Assembly: GCA_963969595.1 (NCBI GenBank)
Contig: OZ018415.1
Location: forward strand, 9,672,001-9,736,000
From: Neckera pumila
Taxonomy: Eukaryota; Streptophyta; Bryopsida; Hypnales; Neckeraceae
Length of the DNA stretch: 64,000 nt
Direction of reading: 5' to 3'
Below the pieces are notes generated by a model. It did not search any database and had not been told where the DNA came from. It was given only the letters and a program-made list of their open reading frames with translations. Of the stretch, positions 2,366-37,337 are shown piece by piece (within the stretch, counting starts at the first letter, position 1; each line of letters starts with the position of its first letter). The position numbers and the translations under genes were made by a program.

Positions 2366-2890
2366 ATTGAATTTTTTTGATAAATGGCTCTTGAAGAAAG
2401 TGGTTGCCCCCAAAAGTTGCCCAAATTGTCCATAAAACGTGGTTTTGATACAATTGTACAAAGATTTGCGGTCTTGAATCAAAAATGATTTTGATGACCA
2501 ATATGCGGATTTTGTTGAACCATCAAAGGACTCCGAGGGCTTCAAAGAAGCTAAATCAAGTCAATCAAGTGAAGGCAAATTTGGATTCAATTGTTTGGCT
2601 TGCAAGGAAAATAAAGCATTAGTGAAGATATATGATTCTTATTAGCAATGAATAGCATTTTTGAATGTGAAGAATCTTTGCTTCAAGATCAATTTATTTT
2701 GATTGAGCTGTTGTCATTCAGTATTGTTGTTTGATCTACATGGAATAGACAAAAAAAAAAGAATTAATTACATTGAACTTTCATAGAATCACTTATAAAT
2801 TGGTTTATAGATGAAATTTTTTTACAAAAACCTAAAAGACAAAGAAAGTATGGTTATCAAATAATAAGTGAATTTTGTTTAGAAATACAA
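2366..2890 (+). repeat. dispersed repeat R1, outer copy spanning the arm boundary
   Basis: This block is diverged but clearly homologous to 23,228-23,770 inside the right arm (and its mirror in the left arm). Both copies contain an ATGGCTCTT-initiated, Cys-containing short frame and a common GGCTTGCAAGGAAAATAAAGC core. The frames are broken, so this is a transposon or gene relic. The palindrome boundary at 2,651 falls inside this repeat; here the repeat continues uninterrupted across it, while its mirror at 30,970 is cut off. Confidence 0.7.
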
Positions 2891-4153
2891 CTAGCAAAAA
2901 TGTATTTTCCTTTTGTGTGGTCCTTTTTCCTCTTAAGGATTACAATATCCTTTTGATAATATAATCAATTATTTTTCTATAGACAATTTGGTCCTTTCAT
3001 CATTGAAAAAATTTTAGGTTTAGTTTTTTGGAATAGACAATTGTATATGCATTGTAAGCGAGAATATTATATGTCCTTTAAGAGTTAATGAACCCAATTC
3101 ACATTCTTTTACTATTATAGAAAGCAAGTGACATTCACACATTATTTCCAATGAACCAAACTTTGATCTTTGTGACTAGATTTCAAATTTGAAACCCAAT
3201 AGAGAGAATATAACATAATATTACTCACTATTATGTAGGAGACTCCTTTTAGCTTCCCTAGAAATGTAGATGTTTGAAAAATGAACATGAAAAGGAGAGG
3301 GCCTTGTAGATAAATCATATTTGAAGGGAAGAAAAGAGACTCCTTTTGTCTTAGATATTGGGGGCAGGGGAAGAATAACATCTTATAAATATAGCCTAAA
3401 AAAAGATACATCCTTCTATCTAGCCTCCTTGACTAAATTGAAAAAGGACTGAACCCTCCTCCATGTTGTTGATCTAAATTAAAAAAAATCAACCCACCAA
3501 ACAATGCCGTTGATATGAATTTTTGAATTTTTGAATTTTGAAATAAAACCCTTGTCCTTGGTGAGTACCGAGCTTTTAGGGACGAGGTGAGAAAATTTGA
3601 TTGTTCATATTAGGATTTAGGGTACTTCATCTCTTTCTTCACATTCCCACATGCATCCATTATGTTTGCAACTCTTGGAGGAATCTCAAAGAATTTGACG
3701 CAATTCTCCTCACTCAAGTATACAATATATTTGTCAATTTTTGTCTCGACACAGCTTTCTTCACTTGCGTGTGCAAGTATGTTTGTGGATTTTGGTCCGT
3801 CTGTCGCAACAATTTAAGTTTGAAGGCCTGAGGTTTTGTAGATTTTAAGGTTTACTAGAAGAACCTCGTGTATTTTTTTTAACCCTTTTTTTGGACGTCC
3901 ACCTATTTTTTTTTATTAACAATGACATCAACTATAACGTCAAGACATTAGTTGTAACACCAAACGTTAACATAAAAACAAGTGGACATCACAAAAAAAT
4001 GTGCCAAAAAAAACATGGGGTTCTTATTATAAATTTTACAAATTATTTTATTGAGTGTAATTTGTGCAATTGGCACCATCACATATACTATATCAACTAA
4101 ATTTAGGGTTATGTTGTGCAAGAAGAAGAAAAAACACTGATCCACATTACTAC
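2891..4153. other. AT-rich, no gene recognised (left arm)
   Basis: This is low-complexity AT-rich sequence with scattered short open frames and no splice-consistent gene. It is mirrored at 29,468-30,730. Confidence 0.5.
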
Positions 4154-4155
4154 TA

Positions 4156-6675
4156 CACTAAAAATGATATTTAGTGTTGGCAACACTAATTACAAACCTT
4201 GACACTAAATATCATAAGTAAGTAACACTAAATCTAATTTCTAACACTAAATATGCTCTATGGTAAATCTGAAATCTGAAAAGGTTTACATTTAGTGTTA
4301 GAACACGTTAAAAAAATGAACTTGCAAAGGAAAAGATTGAAGACAAGTAAAATGATGGAAGGAGTAGAGAATGTGGAAAACATTTGTAATGAAGGAAGTC
4401 TTTGATCAAATAAGGAAAAACAACTTAATATTTAGATGTAATAAGAAAATACAAATTTCATACTTAGGCTGGAGTTTGTTGGCCCTGGAAGTATGGTTGA
4501 TGCTTGGCTATAATTTCCTGCAAATGTGGAAAGAGTTGATTGACACTACAAGTGCCATCAACACCCAAAGCCATACCTAATCTAATCATAGCTTTCCTAA
4601 CATATGACATATTATGACAACTACCTCTCTATTCACATCCTCAACGCTATCCGCAGCCAGTTGTAGGAAAAATCTTTTTCCCGGATTTGTGAGTTTTCCT
4701 GACCATTGCCCATCAGCTCGAGCAGTGTTTTGCCAAGCATTGGTTGCAATGAGCTCAACCTTCTTCGCTTCCCATCGCTTGGTCCAAGCGTCCTTGACTT
4801 TGGAGATGATGAATGTGTCTGTTGGTTGGCATAAGTGTGTAGAACACGGTGGTAAATACCTAAGACTGGCTTGTTTTGTTTCCAAAACAGCCGTTAACGT
4901 TGGGATGATGTTATGGGCAATACAATTGTCAACCCAAATGACTTTTGTCCGGCCATGAACATCGGGTTGGAAGGCTCGAAGTTCACCAGAGTATTCTGCA
5001 AAAAGGGCTTGATCCATCCAGCCCTTAGGCTTGGTCCTGTAGCATATCCCTGGAATATTGTCTTCCAAGCCTTGAATAGGATAATTGCTGCTAGAATTGG
5101 TAAAAATGAGCATGGGGGCTTCAATCATTGATCGACGGCCCCCGGAGATTCTAATGACCATGGTCATAGAGTCTCCACCGGAAACTACTTCGGCGTATTT
5201 AACACTCGTATCCCCTCTAAATCCCAACGTTCGACCATTGTCCAAGTTCACAACAAAATGTGTTTCGTCAACATTCTCCATTAGATTTTCATCTAAAATA
5301 ATTGTTTCAAATCCCCTATGCAGCACACCGAGATGGTAAGCTGTGGCCATTTTGATTTGTAGTTCCTTATCGGGACTACAAGTCAAACATCCTCGTTGTG
5401 ACAACAACACAATGTTGTGCACATGCATAAATTGTTGAACCCAACTTGGGATCAACTTTGATGTGAGTAGAACATTGTCCTTGGGATCACAAGACTGGGC
5501 TAGATATGGAGAGGTAGGATCTAGCAAGATAGTCAAGGCTAACTCAATGAGCAATTTGGATGAGAATTTCACTCCGGCTTTTCTAAATTGGTCAAAAGCA
5601 TTAAGGAGTTTAGGGTAGATCCAAAGTACCCATTCAGATCGCTTGGCATCACGACCTGGAGCTGCCTTTGTGTGGAGTTGTTTCAGCCCTCCCATCCGGC
5701 TCCTACTGCATGAAATTGGTGGAGATGGGATGTCAACCTCTCCTTCATTGCAAAATTGTTGACGTTGAGCCCACCAACGAGAAGCTCGGACAAGGTTGGC
5801 ACTCTTCTGCTCTCGAAAATGCTCCGGAAAGGTGTTGATTGTGCGGACGAAAAGCCCTTGGAGACCATAAGCGACTTCGTCCTGAACCATCCAGGTGATG
5901 ACACGCTTGTGGACAACAATTGTGGAAACTTGCTGCAAGCGACGAGGTGTAGAAGTTGCTGGCGGATTTAGGGCAGCCATGACAAATTTCTGAACATGGC
6001 AAAGGTAAATTCTCAATTTGCAAATCGAAGTGTCGGATTACCAAAGGGGTGGGAGTAAAAAAAAAAAAAAGGGTCGACAGACGTGAGTGGAGGCCAAATG
6101 ACTTAGTAGGATCAGTCGCAGTTGGTGGAGAATTTGAGCTAAGCTGACCTGAGTTGGTGGGAAAAGTGACGTGAGCAGGTGGCCTTCAGTCAAGTCAAAA
6201 GCTGGTCAGAAGCTTTCAGTTCAGTCAAAAGTTCCAATCAAGCGTCAGTGAGAAGCTCCAGTCCAGGTCAAGCAGGCGCAAGCGGGCTACAGCGTTGGAC
6301 TCAATTGGGCGCAGAAGCGGGAGTTTTGAAACTCGGAGTTCCCGCCTTGCGATAGAGTATAACCCACCCACCCCCCAAAAAAAAATCACGCCATTCGCAG
6401 ATTGTGGAGCAAAGACGCGGAGTGGAGAGGGCTCTCGGAAATCGGGGAAGAGAAGCGCAGAGCAGAGAGTGAATCCAGGGGTGGCCAGGGAAGGAGTCCT
6501 GGAACGCAAGGAAAGGTGACAATCTAGGGAAGGCCAGGGAAGGAGACGACAGGAGCGGAGGCGGCGCATTGAAGTCCAACACAACACTAAATCCGCTACA
6601 ATTCAGATTTAGTGTTGTGGCTGGTAGGGGAGTAAAACACTAAATGTCATACTACACTAAATATCATTTTTAGTG
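4156..6675 (-). mobile_element. pogo/Tc1-mariner-type DNA transposon, left-arm copy
   Basis: Terminal inverted repeats of at least 22 bp begin CACTAAAAATGATATTTAG, and the element is flanked by TA at 4,154-4,155 and 6,676-6,677, the Tc1/mariner/pogo target duplication. Both subterminal regions carry several ACACTAAAT/ATTTAGTGT motifs in both orientations, at about 4,156-4,305 and 6,585-6,660. These are probable transposase binding sites. The element is 2,520 bp and carries one minus-strand transposase gene. It matches the right-arm copy at 26,946-29,465 except for one base. Confidence 0.88.
4586..5980 (-). CDS. DDE-type (pogo/Tigger-like) transposase, C-terminally frameshifted, left copy
   Basis: This is the only long frame in the transposon: 464 residues from the ATG at 5,980 (context GTCATGGCT). 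An in-frame non-ATG extension upstream is not used. The catalytic domain shows VDETHF (Asp238), WVDNC (Asp351) and QPTD (Asp388, after LPPCSTHLCQ). This spacing and these motifs match the DDE_1 superfamily, with Asp as the third acid. The enzyme would cut and rejoin the TIR ends in the nucleus. The N-terminal region is Arg/Lys-rich, and no helix-turn-helix was assigned with confidence. The family's C-terminal tail continues in another frame from about 4,585 to 4,464, implying a one-base loss near codon 456. Activity is therefore doubtful. Confidence 0.82.
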   Translation of the reverse strand: MAALNPPATSTPRRLQQVSTIVVHKRVITWMVQDEVAYGLQGLFVRTINTFPEHFREQKSANLVRASRWWAQRQQFCNEGEVDIPSPPISCSRSRMGGLKQLHTKAAPGRDAKRSEWVLWIYPKLLNAFDQFRKAGVKFSSKLLIELALTILLDPTSPYLAQSCDPKDNVLLTSKLIPSWVQQFMHVHNIVLLSQRGCLTCSPDKELQIKMATAYHLGVLHRGFETIILDENLMENVDETHFVVNLDNGRTLGFRGDTSVKYAEVVSGGDSMTMVIRISGGRRSMIEAPMLIFTNSSSNYPIQGLEDNIPGICYRTKPKGWMDQALFAEYSGELRAFQPDVHGRTKVIWVDNCIAHNIIPTLTAVLETKQASLRYLPPCSTHLCQPTDTFIISKVKDAWTKRWEAKKVELIATNAWQNTARADGQWSGKLTNPGKRFFLQLAADSVEDVNREVVVIICHMLGKL

Positions 6676-6677
6676 TA

Positions 6678-8500
6678 GTTTATTTCCCATCTCTTGTCTA
6701 TCTAACCACATTCCTCCCGCTTGGCACCATCTTTTGATAAGGTTGCATGGTGTTTTTACTTGTTTGGTTGTGTGGAGTTTTTCAGCTTTGAAAGTTTTTT
6801 GTATTTGCATGAAGGTGTTTTTGTGTTTCTAGAGGGTATGGGGATCTAACAAGGTTGTTAGATGTTAAATGTCATGTACTTTGAAGGTATCACAAAAAAC
6901 TAGTTTGTTTTAAACATCAATTTTTTTCTATTTGGAGTAAAATGGTACATGGTGTATGTTATTTTCTAAAGGCCTTCAGTCATTGTGTTGAATTGTGGAT
7001 TTTATTTATATTCCCTAAATTCTTGATAAAACATTGATTATGAAATCAATTGCATTGCCAAAAAAAATCACTGTACACTGTGTATTGTAGTCGAAACACT
7101 TTGTTGCATTTCAAAGAAAGGTATGTATTGTATAGTAGATTGCTTATTGCTCTATGCAAATGCTCAACCACTATTCCTTCAATGAGGGTTTTTTATATTA
7201 GGTTTTGGTATTTGTAGTATTAAGGTTTCAATTGAGTTTTTCTTCAGCATTGAGGTTCTTGTTCATGTTGAATTAAGCATGGCATATTGATGCTTTTCTT
7301 GTTTTTTACAACTTTGTATCTTCATTATGATTTTTTGCATTTCTGTAGCAATAACAATTATTTCTTTGTTCTTGTTGTAGTAAGAATCATTTATATTGAA
7401 AGGCAATACTTACTATATTCCTTGTGGTTGGAAGGATTTGAGTACCTTAAAAATACAAAAATTCCATATCAGTATATCTTTTTTTAATTAAAATTTTTTA
7501 TAATAAAATTTTCATAATTATTTTACAATAGTGGTATTGAATAGGGCCCAAGAAATGGCATTGACTATGTCTCAAATAGTAAAAGCAGGAGCCTGCAATG
7601 GAAAAGAACTGAAGACAAAAAATGCAACAACCTTCAAAGGAAAAAAAAGGGATTCAAAATTTGCTAGCATTGCTATACAATTCTAATTTGATGAATCTAT
7701 TGCAAAGAAAATTATTGCTTCTAAAAATGTTGCAAGAAGGACTACCAAAAAAAGCAAAAATGCAATGAAAAAATTGCTTTGAAAAAATGACATTTCTATT
7801 AAAATTTTGAAACACCTTTGGCTTTTTTTGCACTTTGGTGTATTTGTTTCAATAAAAAGAATTTAGGATCTTTTGGAAGAAAAACAACAATGTATTTCTT
7901 TGGAAATTTGTTTTAAAGGTCTTATATTGAATGAAAGCACAATATGTGTGCTTATTTTTTTAACTGATTATGTTTTCTTGAGTTTTAGAGGTGTTCCTTT
8001 TGATAATAGAGGATTTTTAGTTTGTGGTATATACTGATACTATTATACTAGGGGATATTAAATTAGGTTGAATAGTATATTGTTTTAATCCATATATTTT
8101 ATAAAATTAATTTTTGAAATACACACACTTCTATAAAAAAAAATTGCTACTGAACATTTGAATATTAGAGATCTTGAACATTTAAGATTTGAAGACAATT
8201 GACAAAAGTTTAACCATACAACAATAGAATATGTCAATTTAATTAAATTTAAATATATCAATATGCATACTGTTAAATAATATTTATACCACAGTCATGA
8301 ATCTTCATAAAAATATTACAAAAGCATAAAAACACTTTATTGCATTTTATATTTCATCTTTATATTTTTTGAAATTTGGTCCATAAAGGCTTAATAACAG
8401 GGAATTTAAATACATATATTCAATTTGAAAATATACATTGGCATTGGCATCAATAACCAATTATAGTTTAGATTGTCTAGTAATACACTTTGAAACCTTT
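6678..8500. other. AT-rich, no gene recognised (left arm)
   Basis: The sequence is AT-rich and dominated by homopolymer runs. A Lys-rich degenerate stretch at about 7,550-7,800 has no sustained frame. It is mirrored at 25,121-26,943. Confidence 0.45.
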
Positions 8501-8502
8501 AA

Positions 8503-9435
8503 CTTCTAAAGCCCTAAACATGCTTTTTTGATAACATAGCATTTTTGGGCAGCTCACTACGAGCGGAGTTTCTAATTTTTTTCTTTGAAATTTTCACACA
8601 ACATTTTCCCGAGGAGTAGCTTTAAGGCCCAACAATTTTCATAACTTTTGACTACATGATTAAAAAGTTATTGCATGATATGTCATTTTCATTGCTTGGC
8701 GGGTAGCCCGGGCAGCAAAAAAAACTTCTTTAAAAATTGCTTTTTAAGAAAATAAAAACTTGAAATTGGTTCTTTAGATTTATATGTATGTAGGAAGCTT
8801 TGAATCATTCTAGTTGGATTAACGAGCCAAAAGTTATGAGGATTCTTAGTTTGAGGGTAGTTATGGAATCTCAACTCTAAAATAAACTTTGAAGTCCTTT
8901 ATTTAACTCAAATTCAAAATTATTGAAAAAAAATAAAAACATTGGGTGTAGATGGTTTATTACAACATTACAACCGTTGGGATTGGCATTTTTCAATTCC
9001 ATAAATAAATTCTTAACAATTTAGTGTTTTGAATCATTCTCTACCTCTTCTTACTTACTATTTTTTTCCTGTATATTGTACAATTCCAAATGATCCGAAA
9101 TTTTTCAAGCATGTAGTTAACTTGCCTTCAAGAATAAATTCAGAGAGTAACCACCATTTCAGACATTTTTTCATACAAATGTGACCTTGTGAAGGGCAGC
9201 TGCCCGTTTTTTTGCAGGGCCAAAAAAAGGATTTTTGTCATATTAAACGCTATTATCTTGCAATCCACATGGTGGAAAATTCTGAAATTTTTCCACATCT
9301 TCTTAAACAAGTTTACTACAAGAGCCTACAATTACATGTGTCCAAAAATGTTTTTTTTCTAAAATTTGGCACTAGTATTAGAAATGGCAGTTTTGGAGCG
9401 TTTTTGGTGAAAACATAGTCAAAAACCTTTAGGGG
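8503..9435. mobile_element. TTAA-flanked piggyBac-like MITE, left-arm copy (A)
   Basis: The element is bounded by TTAA at 8,499-8,502 and 9,436-9,439. The right terminus is CTTTAGGGG|TTAA and the left is a decayed TTAA|CTTCTAAAGCC. Internal sequence matches the copies at 41,561, 58,919 and 61,259, including a conserved CAAAGCTT block. There is no transposase frame, so it is non-autonomous. Assignment to piggyBac rests on the TTAA target and the CCCCTAAAG terminus. Confidence 0.7.
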
Positions 9436-9850
9436 TTAAATACAATATTTAGCCGAGGCAATTTCATCTAATTATTTTATCTAACATTCATGTAACAATT
9501 TCCTGATACTTGTAGATTATGGATTCCAAAACTCCTTGTTGCAAATCTTCTAATCATATTTAAAAAAAATGCAAGTGTTTCATTTCTAAAGGTAACCTTC
9601 TCATTTCAAAAATAACCATTCAAATATGACTTCAATAAAGATTTCAACCAAAGAATCTTAAAAAAAATCACTATTGTTAGAAGTTTAAACTATAAACTCA
9701 TTGAAAAAAGAATATTATGAAAATCACTTATATTCAAGTTGCAATTGATATTAGAAGGTATTTAAAATACACATAGATTCAATAAAGTTCTTATAAACAT
9801 GTTTGATTACATTTGATGGAGGCTTTTGGAATCATTTATGAGACAAAAGA

Positions 9851-10393
9851 CTTTTTACAAGTAAAATCTATAATCAATATTCACTTAATTCTATTTATCA
9901 TAGTTTTTTTGTTTTCTAAGTTTGTAAGATGCACAAAATAGTAATTTTGTCTATAAATCAACTCGTAAATAATACTTCAAAAGTTCAATGTAGTATTTTC
10001 ATTTTTATTTACTCAAATTGGATTAAACAAAAGTGCTAAATGGCAATGGCTCAATAAAAATAGATTGATCACAAAGCAAAGATTCTTCAAATACAAAAAT
10101 GCCATTCATTGCTAATAAAAATTCATACATCTTCACCAAAGCTTTATTTTCCTTGCAAGCCAAACAATCAAACCCAAATTTGCCTTCGATTAATAAACTT
10201 GATTTTGCTTGTTTGAAGCCCTTGGAGTCATTTGATGGTTCAACAAAATCCTGTGTTGCACATTGTTCATCAAAATCATTCTTGCTTTGAGACCACAAAT
10301 ATGATTGTGCCGAAATCATATTTATGCACAATTAGGGCAATTACCTCTGCAACCATTTTCTTGAAGAGCCATTTCATAAAAAATTCAACACTG
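9851..10393 (-). repeat. dispersed repeat R1, inner copy of the left arm
   Basis: This is the mirror of 23,228-23,770 and is homologous to 2,366-2,890. It contains a broken frame of about 100 codons on the minus strand. It is probably a relic of a transposon or gene, and no domain is recognised. Confidence 0.6.
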
Positions 10394-10655
10394 AAAAAAT
10401 TGTGAATCAATAAATTTAACACAATAGAATGTCAATTCCAATTGTGAAATTTAGTAGTAGTTTCCCACTTCACTTTTCCTTCAAAAATTCTCAATAAATT
10501 CAAGTTTTCACAAAAAAATCTAAATTTTTAACGAGTAAGAAAACATGTGATTTCATCTCTGAAAAATAAATATAAGAATCTTCATTCATAATTAGTCACA
10601 AAATGGGACCAAACAGAGTGAAGGATTTTGAAGTTCAATTACAATTTCATATGTA

Positions 10656-11177
10656 CTAGTGTGCCCTGTGTCGTTGCCACAACTAAAATAAAAGGAAAAG
10701 TAATTTTCTAACTCTCGATTCCACTCCTAGAAGCAAGAACGCCACCAAAATCAAAGCAAAAGTAATTTTCTAACTCCCGGTTCCACTCCCAGTTCCACTC
10801 CCAGAAGCAAGAACGCCACCAAAATCAAAGTAAAAGCAATTTTCTAACTCTCGGTTCCACTCCCAGTAGCAAGAACGCCACCAAAATCAAAGTAAAAGTA
10901 ATTTTCTAACTTTTTAATCAATAAATACTTTGAAATTCAATAACTTTTGCACCACCGCTCCAAACGCCACGAAACCAAGCCGGTGCACCCCTCCTTGGCG
11001 AGAGCTTTCCGACGGTACCAAGCACGCGGCCGGGGGACGCACGGTCAGGAAGTTGTCCACGCTACAAACAAAACAAAACAAAACAAAACAAAACAAAACA
11101 AAACAAAACAAACAAACAAACAAACAAACAAACAAACAAACAAACAAACAAACAAACAGCCTCATTTAAGGTATTGA
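10656..11177 (-). mobile_element. Helitron-like non-autonomous element, left-arm copy
   Basis: This is the mirror of 22,444-22,965; the structural evidence is given there. It contains (CAAAA)n followed by (CAAA)n microsatellites at about 11,065-11,158. Lys/Gln/Asn/Thr-rich frames over these are artefacts of the repeat. Confidence 0.5.
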
Positions 11178-11443
11178 TACAGTTGTCGTTAATATCTGCA
11201 TAATTAGGCTGGCCAATTCAGCACTATCAATTCTAAGACGACTTGCATTATAAAATCGTTTGGACATAAGGCTCTTTTGACTCAAATCACTGCACCTCGT
11301 GTCCAAATTTAAACGTAAAAGTGAATATAAAAAACCTTGCACGAATTCCTGGGGCATCACAATGTTCGCAACAAGCTGGTAGCAGTCTTGGGACCCCATC
11401 TGAACTAGAGTGGCTGCTGCCTTTCCAAGTCTAGCCATCAGCT

Positions 11444-14400
11444 CTACTTTTGGCGTTTGTAGATTTTGGCCAAAAATGACTTCAAGACCACCTGTGGCAA
11501 AGCATTTGTATCAACACGGGTGAATTCAAAGAGCACATTATTCTTAGAAAATACTTACAATTTGAAATAAATCTCCAGTAACTCCACCGAACAATAAACG
11601 CCTGGACATTCCAAATTGATAAACATTCAGAATGTAAAGCACAATATAAACATATTGAAAGATGAGACTGCGGGAAAACAATGGAGCTTACTTGCAGGAT
11701 TTGGTTGTTTTGACTCTCGATAGTAGAGATAAGACTTTGGTAGCTATCTTGCTCATAGTCCTCAAATGCTTTCTATGAATCGACATGCCTCAATTAGTTA
11801 CACGTACTTGACACGCCTGTAGCTGATAACTTAAATATGGATTAAGAAACTGTCGATGGAGAATTACTTGTAGGATATATTCCTGCAAGTAAGTGCTGAG
11901 ATTTGGAAAGGAAACGAGATGTTCTCTGGCTACAAATAACAACGGGAAGTCCTAAGCCGACCTGAAGTTCAAGTTCATTGTACACACGCTTCACCTCAGC
12001 AACACAAGATGGGTCTGCCTTCCCATAATTTTTCTGAAACAAAAAAACAAAAAACATAGATGCTCAGACATGATTGAGTGCCCAACAATAGCCCAGTTCG
12101 TAACATAGTACGCAGCGAATCTGCTTTATTCCGTCCAAACCAGAGAAATTTTCATCTTGCCTTCGGTTCTTTTCATTAAGAAAGATTGGATATATCTCTC
12201 CTGTACGATTTTCTGCTTCACAAGACAGAAAGTTACGCATTAAACATGAATGTGTAATTATCTGAGTAGAAGTGGGAATAAAATCGAGAAGGGCTCAGAA
12301 GTATCCATAATTCTTGAAATGGCTCATTGTAAATCCACTTGAAGAGCACACAAGTAATGAAAGCTCACTGAACTCATTCGAGGAACCACCACAGAATGCT
12401 CATTGAAAACCAACTGACCTTCAACATATGTTTCTGAGATTCATTGGCACGCTTCAGAGCTTGAACTATTAGCCAGGAGCACTTTGTGTCTTCAATGTCA
12501 GTTCCAATCTATAGGCATCCAGAATGTTCAAACTGAATTAGAAAGAGCATTTGTGAGGAAGACACTCTCAGTAATCATCAAAAGCGCACCTAGTTAAACT
12601 GCATTACCATTACTGAGGACCTTAGATTATCACAAAAATCGTTCATACATATTACCAATACAGCGAGGTCACTGGGGAATCTCATGAAGGGATCACGAAT
12701 CAGATGTCTTCAGAAACAATAGCCTCCTATTCCAATCATAAGCCAGGCTAGGATCTGAACCAATTGCATACCTTTCCAATCACTTCAGGGGCACCGTAGC
12801 AGTCCAGAAAATCATCCTGCAACACATAAATAAGACGCGGTTTCAGAGGCATTCCACAAATGCATATACAAAGTTGCAAGTGGAAGAAATCGAAATGTCA
12901 GCAGCAGGACGTACCTGAACTTGGAAGTACGTTCCCATCTGAACAAGGACTTCCTTAGCTGCCTCAAACTTAGGCACGCTCGTCTCCCCTGCCAAAAGCA
13001 AAGCGCATGCCACCTACGACACAATAAATGGGCAGCATATGGCAAATTCATCATCAGGATGACTGATTTCAGTTGGAAGTACCCGTAAACGTTAAACACC
13101 AAAACGGGTAGAGATCATTTTGAAAGGTGTGCAAGACAGTGAATCAACTATGGTTTCCGTAAAGGTGGTAATGTCTCTTCAGTATCTGCGACGTAGGATA
13201 ACTCGATCTCCAAGTAAGAATTCCGTAGAAAGCAAATACGAACATGTATAATCAAAGAATGCAAATTTAAAAAATAAAGAACAATGTTTCTTGCAGAGAA
13301 ATCTTATGGGAAGATAAAATGAATAGTAAGCAGTTTTGTATGTCACGATTCGCATATACCTGTTACCCACCAATACAAAGGTCTGGTCACTAAGGAAGTG
13401 CAATTTTTAACCAAGTCAATAACTAAGACAATCAGTGTGGAATAAACGGGCGGCACAACGTCCAGCAACTTATGTAGGCAGCACATATTTGGATAAATCC
13501 ACTTCTCTTGCTGCCGTGGTGATCAGGTCCAACATCTGCCCAGATGCTGTCTGATATTCAACCTGCAGTGTTTGATTCTTCTTCAGTACTCTGAAATTCA
13601 GAGATGATATCTCAGAGAGCCAGTTTGTAAAAGATGTCAAGAACTTAATTCGGAAATGGCTGAAGACAGAAAGAAGCAAAGCCTAAGCAGCAAGATAAAA
13701 GAAAAAAAAAGTCTGCGGAACTAACATCATTGAATAAGTCGACAAGTTCCACGTAGATAGGCGACTGTCGAAAATGTGTCTTCAGAATACGAGAAATGTG
13801 CGTTCTCAATATAATTCCATCATTAATCGCAATGTGACCAACCTGCAGACGAGCATGACCATTAGACAGCAAAGGTTCCAAATCGAAAATTGAATACACC
13901 CATGCGATTTCCCATTCAAGAAGATGCTCACAAGTTCACCTTTATGAAACGCTACCTGTTGAAGTTCTGTCTATTGTGCACCTAAAACTCTCGTGATTAT
14001 TTATCAACTTCCAAAGAGCTTACCTTTGGAACTCGGTACCAGTAGGGTTGTCCTCGACAAATGACTGAGCTGTCATGATATCATCCAGAACCAAAAAATA
14101 GCCTTGCAACTGTATCCAGAGAGATTATAATGAGAACGCACAATCCAGGGAATTGGTAATCACTAACAAAGTCGTCAAAATGATATTTGTTATTTTGAGG
14201 CAAATATAGACAAGAAGTAATGCGAAAAGGTGCCATTTCCTTTCTATGGGAGGTGATCATACCATTCGATGCACCATTCGAGGGCACATGCATTGAATAT
14301 ATCCGTCTCAGAAAGTGACTCCTTCAAAAGCTTCAAACTGTCGACCATTGACAAACCCCTGTTCAATTTGCCTGCACAACATCAATCCAAACGCACACGT

Positions 14401-15881: not shown

Positions 15882-16032
15882 AAACACTCCTCACCTACAA
15901 AATTTTTTTACCAAAAACAAATTAGCGCTCCGAATCACCACGATCGAACTCAATGCAAAATAGAATCCAAAAGAGAATTCGAAGTAAAGGAAATCCTAAT
16001 AAAAAGAGTCGCAAAATGAGGTTCCGCAGGTC

Positions 16033-16094
16033 TTTTTCTCTATTGGAATCGCTTTAGGAAGGCGTCATTCTGAAGCGATTTCAATAGAGAAAAA
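16033..16094. other. imperfect 22-bp-stem hairpin in FPS leader intron, left copy
   Basis: This is the mirror of 17,527-17,588. It lies in the intron between the FPS leader exon and coding exon 1. Confidence 0.6.
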
Positions 16095-16118
16095 AAACTT
16101 GGCAACGTAAGATTTTCT

Positions 16119-17448: not shown

Positions 17449-17526
17449 TCTTATATAATCTTATAATAATCATCCATATTAATCATCCATAATAATCATC
17501 GTAGAAAATCTTACGTTGCCAAGTTT

Positions 17527-17588
17527 TTTTTCTCTATTGAAATCGCTTCAGAATGACGCCTTCCTAAAGCGATTCCAATAGAGAAAAA
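17527..17588 (+). other. imperfect 22-bp-stem hairpin in FPS leader intron, right copy
   Basis: TTTTTCTCTATTGAAATCGC pairs with the reverse complement at 17,567-17,588, with one mismatch and a loop of about 18 nt. It could be a MITE scar or a structured intronic RNA element. Nothing further is visible. Confidence 0.6.
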
Positions 17589-17739
17589 GACCTGCGGAAC
17601 CTCATTTTGCGACTCTTTTTATTAGGATTTCCTTTACTTCGAATTCTCTTTTGGATTCTATTTTGCATTGAGTTCGATCGTGGTGATTCGGAGCGCTAAT
17701 TTGTTTTTGGTAAAAAAATTTTGTAGGTGAGGAGTGTTT

Positions 17740-20700: not shown

Positions 20701-22177
20701 GTTCAGGTACGTCCTGCTGCTGACATTTCGATTTCTTCCACTTGCAACTTTGTATATGCATTTGTGGAATGCCTCTGAAACCGCGTCTTATTTATGTGTT
20801 GCAGGATGATTTTCTGGACTGCTACGGTGCCCCTGAAGTGATTGGAAAGGTATGCAATTGGTTCAGATCCTAGCCTGGCTTATGATTGGAATAGGAGGCT
20901 ATTGTTTCTGAAGACATCTGATTCGTGATCCCTTCATGAGATTCCCCAGTGACCTCGCTGTATTGGTAATATGTATGAACGATTTTTGTGATAATCTAAG
21001 GTCCTCAGTAATGGTAATGCAGTTTAACTAGGTGCGCTTTTGATGATTACTGAGAGTGTCTTCCTCACAAATGCTCTTTCTAATTCAGTTTGAACATTCT
21101 GGATGCCTATAGATTGGAACTGACATTGAAGACACAAAGTGCTCCTGGCTAATAGTTCAAGCTCTGAAGCGTGCCAATGAATCTCAGAAACATATGTTGA
21201 AGGTCAGTTGGTTTTCAATGAGCATTCTGTGGTGGTTCCTCGAATGAGTTCAGTGAGCTTTCATTACTTGTGTGCTCTTCAAGTGGATTTACAATGAGCC
21301 ATTTCAAGAATTATGGATACTTCTGAGCCCTTCTCGATTTTATTCCCACTTCTACTCAGATAATTACACATTCATGTTTAATGCGTAACTTTCTGTCTTG
21401 TGAAGCAGAAAATCGTACAGGAGAGATATATCCAATCTTTCTTAATGAAAAGAACCGAAGGCAAGATGAAAATTTCTCTGGTTTGGACGGAATAAAGCAG
21501 ATTCGCTGCGTACTATGTTACGAACTGGGCTATTGTTGGGCACTCAATCATGTCTGAGCATCTATGTTTTTTGTTTTTTTGTTTCAGAAAAATTATGGGA
21601 AGGCAGACCCATCTTGTGTTGCTGAGGTGAAGCGTGTGTACAATGAACTTGAACTTCAGGTCGGCTTAGGACTTCCCGTTGTTATTTGTAGCCAGAGAAC
21701 ATCTCGTTTCCTTTCCAAATCTCAGCACTTACTTGCAGGAATATATCCTACAAGTAATTCTCCATCGACAGTTTCTTAATCCATATTTAAGTTATCAGCT
21801 ACAGGCGTGTCAAGTACGTGTAACTAATTGAGGCATGTCGATTCATAGAAAGCATTTGAGGACTATGAGCAAGATAGCTACCAAAGTCTTATCTCTACTA
21901 TCGAGAGTCAAAACAACCAAATCCTGCAAGTAAGCTCCATTGTTTTCCCGCAGTCTCATCTTTCAATATGTTTATATTGTGCTTTACATTCTGAATGTTT
22001 ATCAATTTGGAATGTCCAGGCGTTTATTGTTCGGTGGAGTTACTGGAGATTTATTTCAAATTGTAAGTATTTTCTAAGAATAATGTGCTCTTTGAATTCA
22101 CCCGTGTTGATACAAATGCTTTGCCACAGGTGGTCTTGAAGTCATTTTTGGCCAAAATCTACAAACGCCAAAAGTAG
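17740..22177 (+). pseudogene. FPS: farnesyl diphosphate synthase, disrupted, right copy (promoterless)
   Basis: Exons: 17,740-17,907, 19,040-19,064, 19,250-19,358, 19,512-19,597, 19,779-19,895, 20,059-20,148, 20,262-20,313, 20,608-20,706, 20,805-20,849, 21,113-21,202, 21,588-21,659, 21,849-21,929 and 22,130-22,177. Family landmarks include MLDYTVP (exon 2), [12 protein letters not shown] (exons 2-3), LVLDDIM (exon 4), IAINDGIILR (exon 5), YKTAYYSFYLP (exon 7), GTYFQVQ (exon 8), DDFLDCYG (exon 9) and KIYKRQK (exon 13). Lesions are identical to the left copy: TAG at 17,833-17,835, a missing base at 19,358/19,359, a missing base after 19,547, donor loss at 20,148/20,149, and donor GT to AT at 20,314. 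The combined exons would encode about 360 residues, a normal FPS length. The leader exon and promoter are replaced by the 28-bp array. Three lesions are single missing bases, so sequencing error should be excluded before calling both copies dead. Confidence 0.88.
18078..18780. mobile_element. non-autonomous CACTA element in FPS intron 1, right copy
   Basis: It begins CACTAGTGCAAAACACTGG and ends with the inverse CCAATGTTTTGCACTAGTG. The 3-bp target duplication is ATG (18,075-18,077 and 18,781-18,783). The subterminal parts repeat short TGACATTT/AAATGTCA motifs in both orientations, and the interior has runs of GTAAAATCTACATTT. It has no transposase frame. A 3-bp duplication with CACTA termini identifies the CACTA/EnSpm superfamily. 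Confidence 0.88.
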
Positions 22178-22443
22178 AGCTGATGGCTAGACTTGGAAAG
22201 GCAGCAGCCACTCTAGTTCAGATGGGGTCCCAAGACTGCTACCAGCTTGTTGCGAACATTGTGATGCCCCAGGAATTCGTGCAAGGTTTTTTATATTCAC
22301 TTTTACGTTTAAATTTGGACACGAGGTGCAGTGATTTGAGTCAAAAGAGCCTTATGTCCAAACGATTTTATAATGCAAGTCGTCTTAGAATTGATAGTGC
22401 TGAATTGGCCAGCCTAATTATGCAGATATTAACGACAACTGTA
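22178..22443 (+). other. probable FPS 3' UTR/downstream, right copy
   Basis: The sequence from the FPS stop to the Helitron-like element contains a short frame but no recognisable domain. The mirror is 11,178-11,443. Confidence 0.4.
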
Positions 22444-22965
22444 TCAATACCTTAAATGAGGCTGTTTGTTTGTTTGTTTGTTTGTTTGTTTGTTTGTTTG
22501 TTTGTTTGTTTGTTTTGTTTTGTTTTGTTTTGTTTTGTTTTGTTTTGTTTTGTTTGTAGCGTGGACAACTTCCTGACCGTGCGTCCCCCGGCCGCGTGCT
22601 TGGTACCGTCGGAAAGCTCTCGCCAAGGAGGGGTGCACCGGCTTGGTTTCGTGGCGTTTGGAGCGGTGGTGCAAAAGTTATTGAATTTCAAAGTATTTAT
22701 TGATTAAAAAGTTAGAAAATTACTTTTACTTTGATTTTGGTGGCGTTCTTGCTACTGGGAGTGGAACCGAGAGTTAGAAAATTGCTTTTACTTTGATTTT
22801 GGTGGCGTTCTTGCTTCTGGGAGTGGAACTGGGAGTGGAACCGGGAGTTAGAAAATTACTTTTGCTTTGATTTTGGTGGCGTTCTTGCTTCTAGGAGTGG
22901 AATCGAGAGTTAGAAAATTACTTTTCCTTTTATTTTAGTTGTGGCAACGACACAGGGCACACTAG
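22444..22965 (+). mobile_element. Helitron-like non-autonomous element, right-arm copy
   Basis: The element starts TCAATACCTTAAATGAGGC after an A and ends CACACTAG before a T, with no target duplication. Just upstream of the end is a small stem (GTTG-TGG-CAAC). TC...CTAG termini, a 3' hairpin and A|T insertion are Helitron hallmarks. Inside are (GTTT)n then (GTTTT)n tracts (22,464-22,555) and three tandem ~60-75-bp units containing TTTGATTTTGGTGGCGTTC and GGGAGTGGAACC. The copy at 40,962-41,352 shares both ends. The stem is short, so the assignment is tentative. Confidence 0.55.
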
Positions 22966-23227
22966 TACATATGAAATTGTAATTGAACTTCAAAATCCTT
23001 CACTCTGTTTGGTCCCATTTTGTGACTAATTATGAATGAAGATTCTTATATTTATTTTTCAGAGATGAAATCACATGTTTTCTTACTCGTTAAAAATTTA
23101 GATTTTTTTGTGAAAACTTGAATTTATTGAGAATTTTTGAAGGAAAAGTGAAGTGGGAAACTACTACTAAATTTCACAATTGGAATTGACATTCTATTGT
23201 GTTAAATTTATTGATTCACAATTTTTT

Positions 23228-23770
23228 CAGTGTTGAATTTTTTATGAAATGGCTCTTCAAGAAAATGGTTGCAGAGGTAATTGCCCTAATTGTGCATAAA
23301 TATGATTTCGGCACAATCATATTTGTGGTCTCAAAGCAAGAATGATTTTGATGAACAATGTGCAACACAGGATTTTGTTGAACCATCAAATGACTCCAAG
23401 GGCTTCAAACAAGCAAAATCAAGTTTATTAATCGAAGGCAAATTTGGGTTTGATTGTTTGGCTTGCAAGGAAAATAAAGCTTTGGTGAAGATGTATGAAT
23501 TTTTATTAGCAATGAATGGCATTTTTGTATTTGAAGAATCTTTGCTTTGTGATCAATCTATTTTTATTGAGCCATTGCCATTTAGCACTTTTGTTTAATC
23601 CAATTTGAGTAAATAAAAATGAAAATACTACATTGAACTTTTGAAGTATTATTTACGAGTTGATTTATAGACAAAATTACTATTTTGTGCATCTTACAAA
23701 CTTAGAAAACAAAAAAACTATGATAAATAGAATTAAGTGAATATTGATTATAGATTTTACTTGTAAAAAG
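23228..23770 (+). repeat. dispersed repeat R1, inner copy of the right arm
   Basis: Homologous to 2,366-2,890. It contains an ATGGCTCTTCAAG-initiated short Cys-rich frame that stops early, then a frame of about 100 codons. It is probably a relic, and no family is recognised. Confidence 0.6.
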
Positions 23771-24185
23771 TCTTTTGTCTCATAAATGATTCCAAAAGCC
23801 TCCATCAAATGTAATCAAACATGTTTATAAGAACTTTATTGAATCTATGTGTATTTTAAATACCTTCTAATATCAATTGCAACTTGAATATAAGTGATTT
23901 TCATAATATTCTTTTTTCAATGAGTTTATAGTTTAAACTTCTAACAATAGTGATTTTTTTTAAGATTCTTTGGTTGAAATCTTTATTGAAGTCATATTTG
24001 AATGGTTATTTTTGAAATGAGAAGGTTACCTTTAGAAATGAAACACTTGCATTTTTTTTAAATATGATTAGAAGATTTGCAACAAGGAGTTTTGGAATCC
24101 ATAATCTACAAGTATCAGGAAATTGTTACATGAATGTTAGATAAAATAATTAGATGAAATTGCCTCGGCTAAATATTGTATTTAA

Positions 24186-25118
24186 CCCCTAAAGGTTTTT
24201 GACTATGTTTTCACCAAAAACGCTCCAAAACTGCCATTTCTAATACTAGTGCCAAATTTTAGAAAAAAAACATTTTTGGACACATGTAATTGTAGGCTCT
24301 TGTAGTAAACTTGTTTAAGAAGATGTGGAAAAATTTCAGAATTTTCCACCATGTGGATTGCAAGATAATAGCGTTTAATATGACAAAAATCCTTTTTTTG
24401 GCCCTGCAAAAAAACGGGCAGCTGCCCTTCACAAGGTCACATTTGTATGAAAAAATGTCTGAAATGGTGGTTACTCTCTGAATTTATTCTTGAAGGCAAG
24501 TTAACTACATGCTTGAAAAATTTCGGATCATTTGGAATTGTACAATATACAGGAAAAAAATAGTAAGTAAGAAGAGGTAGAGAATGATTCAAAACACTAA
24601 ATTGTTAAGAATTTATTTATGGAATTGAAAAATGCCAATCCCAACGGTTGTAATGTTGTAATAAACCATCTACACCCAATGTTTTTATTTTTTTTCAATA
24701 ATTTTGAATTTGAGTTAAATAAAGGACTTCAAAGTTTATTTTAGAGTTGAGATTCCATAACTACCCTCAAACTAAGAATCCTCATAACTTTTGGCTCGTT
24801 AATCCAACTAGAATGATTCAAAGCTTCCTACATACATATAAATCTAAAGAACCAATTTCAAGTTTTTATTTTCTTAAAAAGCAATTTTTAAAGAAGTTTT
24901 TTTTGCTGCCCGGGCTACCCGCCAAGCAATGAAAATGACATATCATGCAATAACTTTTTAATCATGTAGTCAAAAGTTATGAAAATTGTTGGGCCTTAAA
25001 GCTACTCCTCGGGAAAATGTTGTGTGAAAATTTCAAAGAAAAAAATTAGAAACTCCGCTCGTAGTGAGCTGCCCAAAAATGCTATGTTATCAAAAAAGCA
25101 TGTTTAGGGCTTTAGAAG
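24186..25118. mobile_element. TTAA-flanked piggyBac-like MITE, right-arm copy (A')
   Basis: Mirror of 8,503-9,435, with TTAA at both ends and a CCCCTAAAGG terminus. Non-autonomous. Confidence 0.7.
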
Positions 25119-25120
25119 TT

Positions 25121-26943
25121 AAAGGTTTCAAAGTGTATTACTAGACAATCTAAACTATAATTGGTTATTGATGCCAATGCCAATGTATATTTTCAAATTG
25201 AATATATGTATTTAAATTCCCTGTTATTAAGCCTTTATGGACCAAATTTCAAAAAATATAAAGATGAAATATAAAATGCAATAAAGTGTTTTTATGCTTT
25301 TGTAATATTTTTATGAAGATTCATGACTGTGGTATAAATATTATTTAACAGTATGCATATTGATATATTTAAATTTAATTAAATTGACATATTCTATTGT
25401 TGTATGGTTAAACTTTTGTCAATTGTCTTCAAATCTTAAATGTTCAAGATCTCTAATATTCAAATGTTCAGTAGCAATTTTTTTTTATAGAAGTGTGTGT
25501 ATTTCAAAAATTAATTTTATAAAATATATGGATTAAAACAATATACTATTCAACCTAATTTAATATCCCCTAGTATAATAGTATCAGTATATACCACAAA
25601 CTAAAAATCCTCTATTATCAAAAGGAACACCTCTAAAACTCAAGAAAACATAATCAGTTAAAAAAATAAGCACACATATTGTGCTTTCATTCAATATAAG
25701 ACCTTTAAAACAAATTTCCAAAGAAATACATTGTTGTTTTTCTTCCAAAAGATCCTAAATTCTTTTTATTGAAACAAATACACCAAAGTGCAAAAAAAGC
25801 CAAAGGTGTTTCAAAATTTTAATAGAAATGTCATTTTTTCAAAGCAATTTTTTCATTGCATTTTTGCTTTTTTTGGTAGTCCTTCTTGCAACATTTTTAG
25901 AAGCAATAATTTTCTTTGCAATAGATTCATCAAATTAGAATTGTATAGCAATGCTAGCAAATTTTGAATCCCTTTTTTTTCCTTTGAAGGTTGTTGCATT
26001 TTTTGTCTTCAGTTCTTTTCCATTGCAGGCTCCTGCTTTTACTATTTGAGACATAGTCAATGCCATTTCTTGGGCCCTATTCAATACCACTATTGTAAAA
26101 TAATTATGAAAATTTTATTATAAAAAATTTTAATTAAAAAAAGATATACTGATATGGAATTTTTGTATTTTTAAGGTACTCAAATCCTTCCAACCACAAG
26201 GAATATAGTAAGTATTGCCTTTCAATATAAATGATTCTTACTACAACAAGAACAAAGAAATAATTGTTATTGCTACAGAAATGCAAAAAATCATAATGAA
26301 GATACAAAGTTGTAAAAAACAAGAAAAGCATCAATATGCCATGCTTAATTCAACATGAACAAGAACCTCAATGCTGAAGAAAAACTCAATTGAAACCTTA
26401 ATACTACAAATACCAAAACCTAATATAAAAAACCCTCATTGAAGGAATAGTGGTTGAGCATTTGCATAGAGCAATAAGCAATCTACTATACAATACATAC
26501 CTTTCTTTGAAATGCAACAAAGTGTTTCGACTACAATACACAGTGTACAGTGATTTTTTTTGGCAATGCAATTGATTTCATAATCAATGTTTTATCAAGA
26601 ATTTAGGGAATATAAATAAAATCCACAATTCAACACAATGACTGAAGGCCTTTAGAAAATAACATACACCATGTACCATTTTACTCCAAATAGAAAAAAA
26701 TTGATGTTTAAAACAAACTAGTTTTTTGTGATACCTTCAAAGTACATGACATTTAACATCTAACAACCTTGTTAGATCCCCATACCCTCTAGAAACACAA
26801 AAACACCTTCATGCAAATACAAAAAACTTTCAAAGCTGAAAAACTCCACACAACCAAACAAGTAAAAACACCATGCAACCTTATCAAAAGATGGTGCCAA
26901 GCGGGAGGAATGTGGTTAGATAGACAAGAGATGGGAAATAAAC
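25121..26943. other. AT-rich, no gene recognised (right arm)
   Basis: Mirror of 6,678-8,500; no sustained frame or splice-consistent gene. Confidence 0.45.
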
Positions 26944-26945
26944 TA

Positions 26946-29465
26946 CACTAAAAATGATATTTAGTGTAGTATGACATTTAGTGTTTTACTCCCCTACCAG
27001 CCACAACACTAAATCTGAATTGTAGCGGATTTAGTGTTGTGTTGGACTTCAATGCGCCGCCTCCGCTCCTGTCGTCTCCTTCCCTGGCCTTCCCTAGATT
27101 GTCACCTTTCCTTGCGTTCCAGGACTCCTTCCCTGGCCACCCCTGGATTCACTCTCTGCTCTGCGCTTCTCTTCCCCGATTTCCGAGAGCCCTCTCCACT
27201 CCGCGTCTTTGCTCCACAATCTGCGAATGGCGTGATTTTTTTTTGGGGGGTGGGTGGGTTATACTCTATCGCAAGGCGGGAACTCCGAGTTTCAAAACTC
27301 CCGCTTCTGCGCCCAATTGAGTCCAACGCTGTAGCCCGCTTGCGCCTGCTTGACCTGGACTGGAGCTTCTCACTGACGCTTGATTGGAACTTTTGACTGA
27401 ACTGAAAGCTTCTGACCAGCTTTTGACTTGACTGAAGGCCACCTGCTCACGTCACTTTTCCCACCAACTCAGGTCAGCTTAGCTCAAATTCTCCACCAAC
27501 TGCGACTGATCCTACTAAGTCATTTGGCCTCCACTCACGTCTGTCGACCCTTTTTTTTTTTTTTACTCCCACCCCTTTGGTAATCCGACACTTCGATTTG
27601 CAAATTGAGAATTTACCTTTGCCATGTTCAGAAATTTGTCATGGCTGCCCTAAATCCGCCAGCAACTTCTACACCTCGTCGCTTGCAGCAAGTTTCCACA
27701 ATTGTTGTCCACAAGCGTGTCATCACCTGGATGGTTCAGGACGAAGTCGCTTATGGTCTCCAAGGGCTTTTCGTCCGCACAATCAACACCTTTCCGGAGC
27801 ATTTTCGAGAGCAGAAGAGTGCCAACCTTGTCCGAGCTTCTCGTTGGTGGGCTCAACGTCAACAATTTTGCAATGAAGGAGAGGTTGACATCCCATCTCC
27901 ACCAATTTCATGCAGTAGGAGCCGGATGGGAGGGCTGAAACAACTCCACACAAAGGCAGCTCCAGGTCGTGATGCCAAGCGATCTGAATGGGTACTTTGG
28001 ATCTACCCTAAACTCCTTAATGCTTTTGACCAATTTAGAAAAGCCGGAGTGAAATTCTCATCCAAATTGCTCATTGAGTTAGCCTTGACTATCTTGCTAG
28101 ATCCTACCTCTCCATATCTAGCCCAGTCTTGTGATCCCAAGGACAATGTTCTACTCACATCAAAGTTGATCCCAAGTTGGGTTCAACAATTTATGCATGT
28201 GCACAACATTGTGTTGTTGTCACAACGAGGATGTTTGACTTGTAGTCCCGATAAGGAACTACAAATCAAAATGGCCACAGCTTACCATCTCGGTGTGCTG
28301 CATAGGGGATTTGAAACAATTATTTTAGATGAAAATCTAATGGAGAATGTTGACGAAACACATTTTGTTGTGAACTTGGACAATGGTCGAACGTTGGGAT
28401 TTAGAGGGGATACGAGTGTTAAATACGCCGAAGTAGTTTCCGGTGGAGACTCTATGACCATGGTCATTAGAATCTCCGGGGGCCGTCGATCAATGATTGA
28501 AGCCCCCATGCTCATTTTTACCAATTCTAGCAGCAATTATCCTATTCAAGGCTTGGAAGACAATATTCCAGGGATATGCTACAGGACCAAGCCTAAGGGC
28601 TGGATGGATCAAGCCCTTTTTGCAGAATACTCTGGTGAACTTCGAGCCTTCCAACCCGATGTTCATGGCCGGACAAAAGTCATTTGGGTTGACAATTGTA
28701 TTGCCCATAACATCATCCCAACGTTAACGGCTGTTTTGGAAACAAAACAAGCCAGTCTTAGGTATTTACCACCGTGTTCTACACACTTATGCCAACCAAC
28801 AGACACATTCATCATCTCCAAAGTCAAGGACGCTTGGACCAAGCGATGGGAAGCGAAGAAGGTTGAGCTCATTGCAACCAATGCTTGGCAAAACACTGCT
28901 CGAGCTGATGGGCAATGGTCAGGAAAACTCACAAATCCGGGAAAAAGATTTTTCCTACAACTGGCTGCGGATAGCGTTGAGGATGTGAATAGAGAGGTAG
29001 TTGTCATAATATGTCATATGTTAGGAAAGCTATGATTAGATTAGGTATGGCTTTGGGTGTTGATGGCACTTGTAGTGTCAATCAACTCTTTCCACATTTG
29101 CAGGAAATTATAGCCAAGCATCAACCATACTTCCAGGGCCAACAAATTCCAGCCTAAGTATGAAATTTGTATTTTCTTATTACATCTAAATATTAAGTTG
29201 TTTTTCCTTATTTGATCAAAGACTTCCTTCATTACAAATGTTTTCCACATTCTCTACTCCTTCCATCATTTTACTTGTCTTCAATCTTTTCCTTTGCAAG
29301 TTCATTTTTTTAACGTGTTCTAACACTAAATGTAAACCTTTTCAGATTTCAGATTTACCATAGAGCATATTTAGTGTTAGAAATTAGATTTAGTGTTACT
29401 TACTTATGATATTTAGTGTCAAGGTTTGTAATTAGTGTTGCCAACACTAAATATCATTTTTAGTG
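26946..29465 (+). mobile_element. pogo/Tc1-mariner-type DNA transposon, right-arm copy
   Basis: TA-flanked (26,944-26,945 and 29,466-29,467) with the same TIRs and subterminal ATTTAGTGT clusters as the left copy. The single arm difference (29,147) lies in this element. Confidence 0.88.
27641..29035 (+). CDS. DDE-type (pogo/Tigger-like) transposase, C-terminally frameshifted, right copy
   Basis: The frame has 464 codons from the ATG at 27,641 (GTCATGGCT). Catalytic acids are Asp238 (VDETHF), Asp351 (WVDNC) and Asp388 (QPTD). Reading ends at TGA 29,033-29,035. Another frame continues smoothly from about 29,012 to the stop at 29,155-29,157, with YVRKAMIR and QLFPHLQEII. This looks like the missing C-terminal ~45 residues of the same protein. 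A one-base loss near 29,010 explains it. The only arm-specific base (29,147) falls in this out-of-frame tail (Ile versus Thr codon). The transposase would act on the flanking TIRs if functional. Confidence 0.82.
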   Translation: MAALNPPATSTPRRLQQVSTIVVHKRVITWMVQDEVAYGLQGLFVRTINTFPEHFREQKSANLVRASRWWAQRQQFCNEGEVDIPSPPISCSRSRMGGLKQLHTKAAPGRDAKRSEWVLWIYPKLLNAFDQFRKAGVKFSSKLLIELALTILLDPTSPYLAQSCDPKDNVLLTSKLIPSWVQQFMHVHNIVLLSQRGCLTCSPDKELQIKMATAYHLGVLHRGFETIILDENLMENVDETHFVVNLDNGRTLGFRGDTSVKYAEVVSGGDSMTMVIRISGGRRSMIEAPMLIFTNSSSNYPIQGLEDNIPGICYRTKPKGWMDQALFAEYSGELRAFQPDVHGRTKVIWVDNCIAHNIIPTLTAVLETKQASLRYLPPCSTHLCQPTDTFIISKVKDAWTKRWEAKKVELIATNAWQNTARADGQWSGKLTNPGKRFFLQLAADSVEDVNREVVVIICHMLGKL

Positions 29466-29467
29466 TA

Positions 29468-30730
29468 GTAGTAATGTGGATCAGTGTTTTTTCTTCTTCT
29501 TGCACAACATAACCCTAAATTTAGTTGATATAGTATATGTGATGGTGCCAATTGCACAAATTACACTCAATAAAATAATTTGTAAAATTTATAATAAGAA
29601 CCCCATGTTTTTTTTGGCACATTTTTTTGTGATGTCCACTTGTTTTTATGTTAACGTTTGGTGTTACAACTAATGTCTTGACGTTATAGTTGATGTCATT
29701 GTTAATAAAAAAAAATAGGTGGACGTCCAAAAAAAGGGTTAAAAAAAATACACGAGGTTCTTCTAGTAAACCTTAAAATCTACAAAACCTCAGGCCTTCA
29801 AACTTAAATTGTTGCGACAGACGGACCAAAATCCACAAACATACTTGCACACGCAAGTGAAGAAAGCTGTGTCGAGACAAAAATTGACAAATATATTGTA
29901 TACTTGAGTGAGGAGAATTGCGTCAAATTCTTTGAGATTCCTCCAAGAGTTGCAAACATAATGGATGCATGTGGGAATGTGAAGAAAGAGATGAAGTACC
30001 CTAAATCCTAATATGAACAATCAAATTTTCTCACCTCGTCCCTAAAAGCTCGGTACTCACCAAGGACAAGGGTTTTATTTCAAAATTCAAAAATTCAAAA
30101 ATTCATATCAACGGCATTGTTTGGTGGGTTGATTTTTTTTAATTTAGATCAACAACATGGAGGAGGGTTCAGTCCTTTTTCAATTTAGTCAAGGAGGCTA
30201 GATAGAAGGATGTATCTTTTTTTAGGCTATATTTATAAGATGTTATTCTTCCCCTGCCCCCAATATCTAAGACAAAAGGAGTCTCTTTTCTTCCCTTCAA
30301 ATATGATTTATCTACAAGGCCCTCTCCTTTTCATGTTCATTTTTCAAACATCTACATTTCTAGGGAAGCTAAAAGGAGTCTCCTACATAATAGTGAGTAA
30401 TATTATGTTATATTCTCTCTATTGGGTTTCAAATTTGAAATCTAGTCACAAAGATCAAAGTTTGGTTCATTGGAAATAATGTGTGAATGTCACTTGCTTT
30501 CTATAATAGTAAAAGAATGTGAATTGGGTTCATTAACTCTTAAAGGACATATAATATTCTCGCTTACAATGCATATACAATTGTCTATTCCAAAAAACTA
30601 AACCTAAAATTTTTTCAATGATGAAAGGACCAAATTGTCTATAGAAAAATAATTGATTATATTATCAAAAGGATATTGTAATCCTTAAGAGGAAAAAGGA
30701 CCACACAAAAGGAAAATACATTTTTGCTAG
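29468..30730. other. AT-rich, no gene recognised (right arm)
   Basis: Mirror of 2,891-4,153. Short open frames only. Confidence 0.45.
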
Positions 30731-30970
30731 TTGTATTTCTAAACAAAATTCACTTATTATTTGATAACCATACTTTCTTTGTCTTTTAGGTTTTTGTAAA
30801 AAAATTTCATCTATAAACCAATTTATAAGTGATTCTATGAAAGTTCAATGTAATTAATTCTTTTTTTTTTGTCTATTCCATGTAGATCAAACAACAATAC
30901 TGAATGACAACAGCTCAATCAAAATAAATTGATCTTGAAGCAAAGATTCTTCACATTCAAAAATGCTATT
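30731..30970 (-). repeat. dispersed repeat R1, truncated at the palindrome edge
   Basis: Mirror of 2,651-2,890. Homology to the other R1 copies stops at 30,970, so the rearrangement junction cuts this repeat. Confidence 0.65.
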
Positions 30971-37336: not shown

Positions 37337-37337
37337 C

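Follow-up and report, generated by a model that had tools for sequence, protein, structure and literature searches.

A probable young 13.5-kb inverted duplication, possibly primed at the inverted ends of a repeat element, in DNA of likely land-plant origin

Results

The window, that is, the whole stretch of DNA analysed (64 kb), contains a palindrome with two arms of 13.5 kb on either side of a non-mirrored centre. The explanation that we prefer, and to which we would give about an even chance judging by its sequence, is a young interstitial inverted duplication in the nuclear genome of a land plant, probably primed at the inverted ends of a repeat element, either through fold-back or by a switch of template. 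A land plant is the likely source of the DNA. The palindrome most probably goes back to a recent accident of copying and not to a new type of genetic system; inverted duplications of this sort are already known, and the present locus is a further example.

Geometry of the palindrome

The arms were delimited by a base-by-base mirror test (coordinate sum 33621) and by BLAST self-alignment, resulting in the following features:

2651..16118, + strand: left arm, mirror of 17503-30970; an older repeat runs unbroken over 2650/2651; probably the original
16119..17502, + strand: non-mirrored spacer of 1,384 bp
17503..30970, - strand: right arm; its outer end interrupts a repeat left intact at the left border; probably the inverted copy

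Each arm is 13,468 bp in size and the two are 99.985% identical, with no indel between them; the symmetry stops abruptly at the inner and the outer borders. The original prediction had described 13,468-bp arms in exact mirror relation with a coordinate sum of 33,621, a non-palindromic spacer of 1,384 bp and non-mirrored outer flanks, and the mirror test and BLAST reproduced the arm ends and length as well as the spacer and the flanks. It had also named 4,474/29,147 as the sole mismatch, which was an undercount, as the full self-alignment added a further one at 15509/18112. The two differences, given in left-arm sense, are thus G vs A (4474/29147) and C vs T (15509/18112). Between them lies the longest exact mirrored run (4475-15508; 11,034 bp), compared with an estimate of about 16 bp for the longest exact inverted match expected by chance in 64 kb. 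Near-identical inverted arms, as expected of an inverted duplication primed at short inverted repeats, are present at this locus.

Contents of the arms

Two larger features were identified in each arm:

4152..6679, - strand (mirror 26942-29469): DDE_1 transposon with perfect 26-bp inverted ends
11447..15881, - strand (mirror 17740-22174, + strand): broken farnesyl diphosphate synthase (FPPS) gene, identified by comparison with solved FPPS structures

Of the 164 stop-to-stop frames with a length of 70 aa or more, 35 distinct open frames were searched against Pfam, and among these 35 only DDE_1 passed the curated cut-off (43.3 bits vs a cut-off of 22). The DDE_1 frame at 4586-6037 (- strand) is uninterrupted over 483 codons, the first Met being codon 20, and as judged by sequence the transposon at 4152-6679 is complete-looking. 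A search of viral_contigs with the DDE_1 protein gave seven pattern matches, none of which was confirmed as a relative.

Two Pfam matches to polyprenyl_synt (16.5 and 13.5 bits) were under the cut-off of 27, and solved structures were used as follow-up. Four exon frames matched solved FPPS structures, with best E-values of 4.6e-13, 1.4e-3, 1.9e-4 and 1.8e-8; the best-matching structures were named FPS2, FPS3 and FDS-5 chimera, proteins which we take to be of plant origin. Fourteen pieces of the gene, chosen by eye, follow each other in gene order from 15881 to 11447 on the minus strand; most of them are presumed to be FPPS. GT stands directly after 8 of the 14 pieces and AG directly before 7, indicating that many splice sites are still present. 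An in-frame stop (15786-15788) interrupts the gene, and its frame is broken near 14074; both lesions are presumably disabling. This damage is found in both arms and is therefore older than the duplication. In both arms the FPPS copy is oriented outwards from the palindrome's centre.

No obvious function for the palindrome was found in these contents. By analogy, it might be read as a young RNA-silencing locus in which read-through transcription would let the two arms pair as double-stranded RNA, with siRNAs from the broken FPPS copies damping the working FPPS gene, much as chalcone synthase is damped by the soybean I locus; we consider this highly improbable, because both FPPS copies point outwards. 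An organellar inverted repeat was set aside, given that the broken FPPS gene in the arms contains introns and is accompanied by a DNA transposon.

The central repeat element

The centre of the palindrome is occupied by repeat DNA with the following parts:

16033..16094, + strand (mirror 17527-17588): 62-bp self-complementary hairpin, directly outside the left inverted end
16095..17526, + strand: central repeat element of 1.43 kb including 24-bp inverted ends, with matches to a copy at 36.1-38.7 kb
16095..16118, + strand: left 24-bp inverted end, with a 22-base core that occurs three times in the window
16981..17450, + strand: AT-rich array, 16.7 copies of a 28-bp unit, partly self-complementary
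17503..17526, - strand: right 24-bp inverted end, with the same 22-base core

Positions 16095-16569 match 38663-38189 (minus strand, 96.4% identity) and positions 16566-16968 match 36491-36089 (minus strand, 95.3% identity), and repeat DNA that occurs a second time in the window accounts for 874 bp of the spacer. The match begins exactly at 16095, which is 24 bp inside the inner border of the left arm, and the mirroring of the arms puts the same 24 bp, inverted, at 17503-17526. The 22-base core, present three times in the window, was absent from 100 shuffles; the third occurrence forms the end of the 38-kb element copy. A search of viral_contigs with this 22-base element end revealed no relative. 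The stretch 16095-17526 can thus be seen as an element bounded by inverted ends of 24 bp, at which the palindrome would start.

The right end was, we infer, part of the element before the duplication. The left end is common to the 38-kb copy and the right end is without an independent copy in the window; a pre-existing right inverted end is putative, because the copy at 36.1-38.7 kb is incomplete, having neither the array nor the right end. This copy contains an extra stretch of 1,697 bp (36492-38188) with AACA at both sides, which looks like an insertion into it. An interpretation of the central element as a spliced copy was dropped, based on these flanking AACA motifs and on the 1,697-bp stretch being without GT...AG ends.

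The array makes up one third of the spacer. Two pieces of it, folded as single-stranded DNA, gained only a little over shuffled sequence: at a z of -1.45, 19 of 200 shuffles folded as well, and at a z of -2.51, one of 200 did. For the hairpin region (16021-16106) the predicted folding had a z of -6.18, with none of 200 shuffles as good; an Rfam match of Drosophila rox1 on the 62-bp hairpin was below the gathering score. The orientation of the spacer may be wrong in the assembly, as it cannot be established from reads that do not span a whole arm.

Outer borders of the arms

The left outer border lies within an older repeat:

2326..2900, + strand: older repeat over the left outer border, with a paralogue near 9943-10398 (592 columns, 75% identity); the end at 2900 is a lower bound, as the query stopped there

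BLAST self-alignment also showed this repeat (2356-2818, 78%). Aligned alone against the paralogue, the left flank scored 173.5 and the right flank 14.0, the maximum in 200 shuffles being 23.0 in each case. The pair of scores (173.5 vs 14.0) shows the asymmetry expected of an original and a derived arm with the new junction at the outer end of the copy. When the right arm and right flank were aligned jointly, the alignment overran the right border by about 25 bp for 4 extra points, which was taken as noise or micro-homology. Because the older repeat is continuous at the left border but cut at the right, the left border is old and the right border new, and the left arm is probably the original and the right arm the copy.

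A target-site duplication was sought at the outer borders, and only 2 bp (TG) were common to them; there is therefore no sign of transposition. At 15509/18112 the left base retains one more pair in a local hairpin, suggesting that this change arose in the right arm. Polarising 15509 by the repeat at 14841-14885 gave no polarity, the placement of a gap being all that differed.

Other features of the window

Rfam searches gave 21 matches at E up to 0.5, of which the sole one at its gathering score was snoZ43 at 1200-1295. Two features of this kind lie outside the palindrome:

953-1045, - strand: second snoZ43-like C/D snoRNA, below the gathering score
1200-1295, - strand: snoZ43-like C/D snoRNA, score 57 vs a gathering score of 43

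The pair is perhaps a snoRNA cluster. Matches to plant MIR families and to non-plant families were all below gathering scores; we assume snoZ43 and the MIR families to be plant families. An intronless frame of 510 codons at 38896-40428 (- strand) has 55% G+C in a window of 37% G+C; Pfam gave nothing for it at E up to 1, solved structures yielded no convincing relative (best E 0.69), and by eye we take it to be fungal-looking and LRR-like. Three self-complementary stretches of about 360-370 bp (45150-45509, 45912-46283 and 47630-47996), each 85-90% identical to its own reverse complement, look like related MITE hairpins, and two of the three have weak matches to MIR families. A proline-rich open frame of 375 codons at 53725-54849 (+ strand) had no Pfam match and is possibly a gene exon.

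Discussion

Alternative explanations

The original prediction had left three options for the palindrome, namely a very recent inverted duplication, ongoing gene conversion or a fold-back assembly artefact. This was the right set, and the evidence now favours the first. An artefact of assembly or library preparation, in which a single 13.5-kb segment would have been written out a second time in reverse, owing to fold-back molecules or a graph error, is unlikely, although just two differences across 13,468 bp are what it would leave. Fold-back reads make up about 0.55-0.6% of nanopore genomic libraries and 10-20% of nanopore direct-cDNA reads, with more than 11 unmapped bases between the halves in typically less than half of them (PMC12870357); palindromic reads also arise from whole-genome amplification (PMC13265396). 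The unmapped middles of fold-back reads are rich in simple repeats (PMC12870357), as is the spacer here, one third of which is AT-rich array, a reason for caution. The spacer had been put forward as an argument against an artefact; it is real, but weaker evidence than claimed and not decisive, because in one published fold-back read the halves are about 2 kb apart (PMC12870357). What speaks against an artefact is that 874 bp of the spacer belongs to repeat DNA found a second time in the window, and that the right outer border meets unrelated sequence, so that a second, separate false join would be required. In addition, the study classed as fold-backs those mapping within 200 bp, whereas the arms here are 1,384 bp apart, and it reports virtually no fold-backs in the PacBio HiFi data examined (PMC12870357).

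The arms and borders would be explained equally well by a recent inverted duplication with an inner border unrelated to the element's inverted ends, for instance through sister-chromatid fusion, or through a template switch at micro-homology that happened to fall 24 bp into the element, and the sole other copy of the element in the window is without the right end. The inner border would then lie 24 bp inside the element edge by coincidence, and we regard such an origin as distinctly unlikely. An older palindrome with arms kept alike by gene conversion, the process that keeps large mammalian sex-chromosome palindromes (PMC6790999), fits the two differences equally well if conversion is frequent; there is however no positive sign of conversion, and neither the clean asymmetry of the outer borders nor the absence of tract boundaries requires it, making this very unlikely. 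It is barely credible that transposition produced the palindrome, be it as a giant element whose inverted ends measure 13.5 kb or, through alternative transposition, as a composite insertion. An element with inverted ends does sit at the centre, and alternative transposition in maize makes segmental duplications with transposon termini (PMC4270019), but the outer borders share TG only and the left border is inside a continuous older repeat. Both the giant-transposon and the composite-insertion readings are disfavoured by the lack of a target-site duplication.

Comparison with known systems

Inverted duplications in yeast can result from fold-back priming at inverted repeats. Such events involve 11-bp imperfect repeats with 6 bp between them, are commonest without Mre11 or Sae2 function, and are often dicentric with secondary rearrangement (PMC10622511); in ODIRA, repeats of about 5 nt are 40-80 nt apart (PMC10766186). 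The palindrome shares with both the near-identical inverted arms and a non-mirrored middle bounded by short inverted repeats. It differs from them in that its repeats are 24 bp long and 1,384 bp apart, and in being interstitial. Inverted 320-bp Alu repeats can interact over distances of up to 30 kb, and in wild-type yeast a spacer of 1.5 kb drops the Alu rate 31-fold vs one of 12 bp (PMC10164571).

Among the cited papers the nearest plant case is the soybean I locus (CHS1-3-4 / CHS4-3-1), an inverted duplication of similar size with identical 10.91-kb arms around 5.71 kb that carries duplicated biosynthetic genes; its arms hold CHS gene clusters and the locus produces siRNAs (PMC6710647), whereas the arms described here hold one broken FPPS gene and a transposon. 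As in the composite insertions of maize, a segmental duplication is associated with DNA-transposon ends, but the maize allele pair has 8-bp target-site duplications at its breakpoints and the palindrome has none; the word 'inverted' is absent from the main text of the maize paper (PMC4270019). With sex-chromosome palindromes (PMC6790999) the locus shares the long near-identical inverted arms. A literature search on plant palindromes gave three papers, with no such case in their titles or the beginnings of their abstracts.

Proposed origin and age

The preferred reading is a fold-back duplication with priming at the inverted ends of the element. Just beyond the element, a break or the stalling of a fork would have allowed one 24-bp end to anneal back on the other, and synthesis would then have run outwards along the left arm, copying 13.5 kb of it. 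Since the yeast events usually end dicentric or terminal, an interstitial product calls for a second join; this join, at 30970/30971, may have been a non-homologous switch or end-joining back to other sequence. The locus would have been passive since, its broken FPPS gene and its DDE_1 transposon each being present twice. Consistent with fold-back are the gap-free, near-identical arms and the element edge 24 bp inside the arm border, inverted on both sides. Against it, 24-bp repeats 1.4 kb apart lie outside the geometries of the cited models and are spaced more widely than in the short-repeat ones.

If there was no gene conversion, two differences correspond to about 5,000, 10,600 and 37,000 generations at assumed per-site mutation rates of 1.5e-8, 7e-9 and 2e-9, respectively, and the joint 95% intervals extend from 600 to 134,000 generations under the same condition.

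Implications

Should the palindrome be an artefact, it would indicate that an assembled palindrome cannot be trusted simply for having a spacer and flanks without mirror symmetry. If it is real, a large palindrome has been captured at a young stage, with the original arm, the copy and the centre all legible, from which the steps of a plant inverted duplication can be inferred by sequence. It would tie the 24-bp ends of an ordinary repeat element, 1.4 kb apart and thus at a wider spacing than in the cited short-repeat models, to the formation of a 13.5-kb palindrome.
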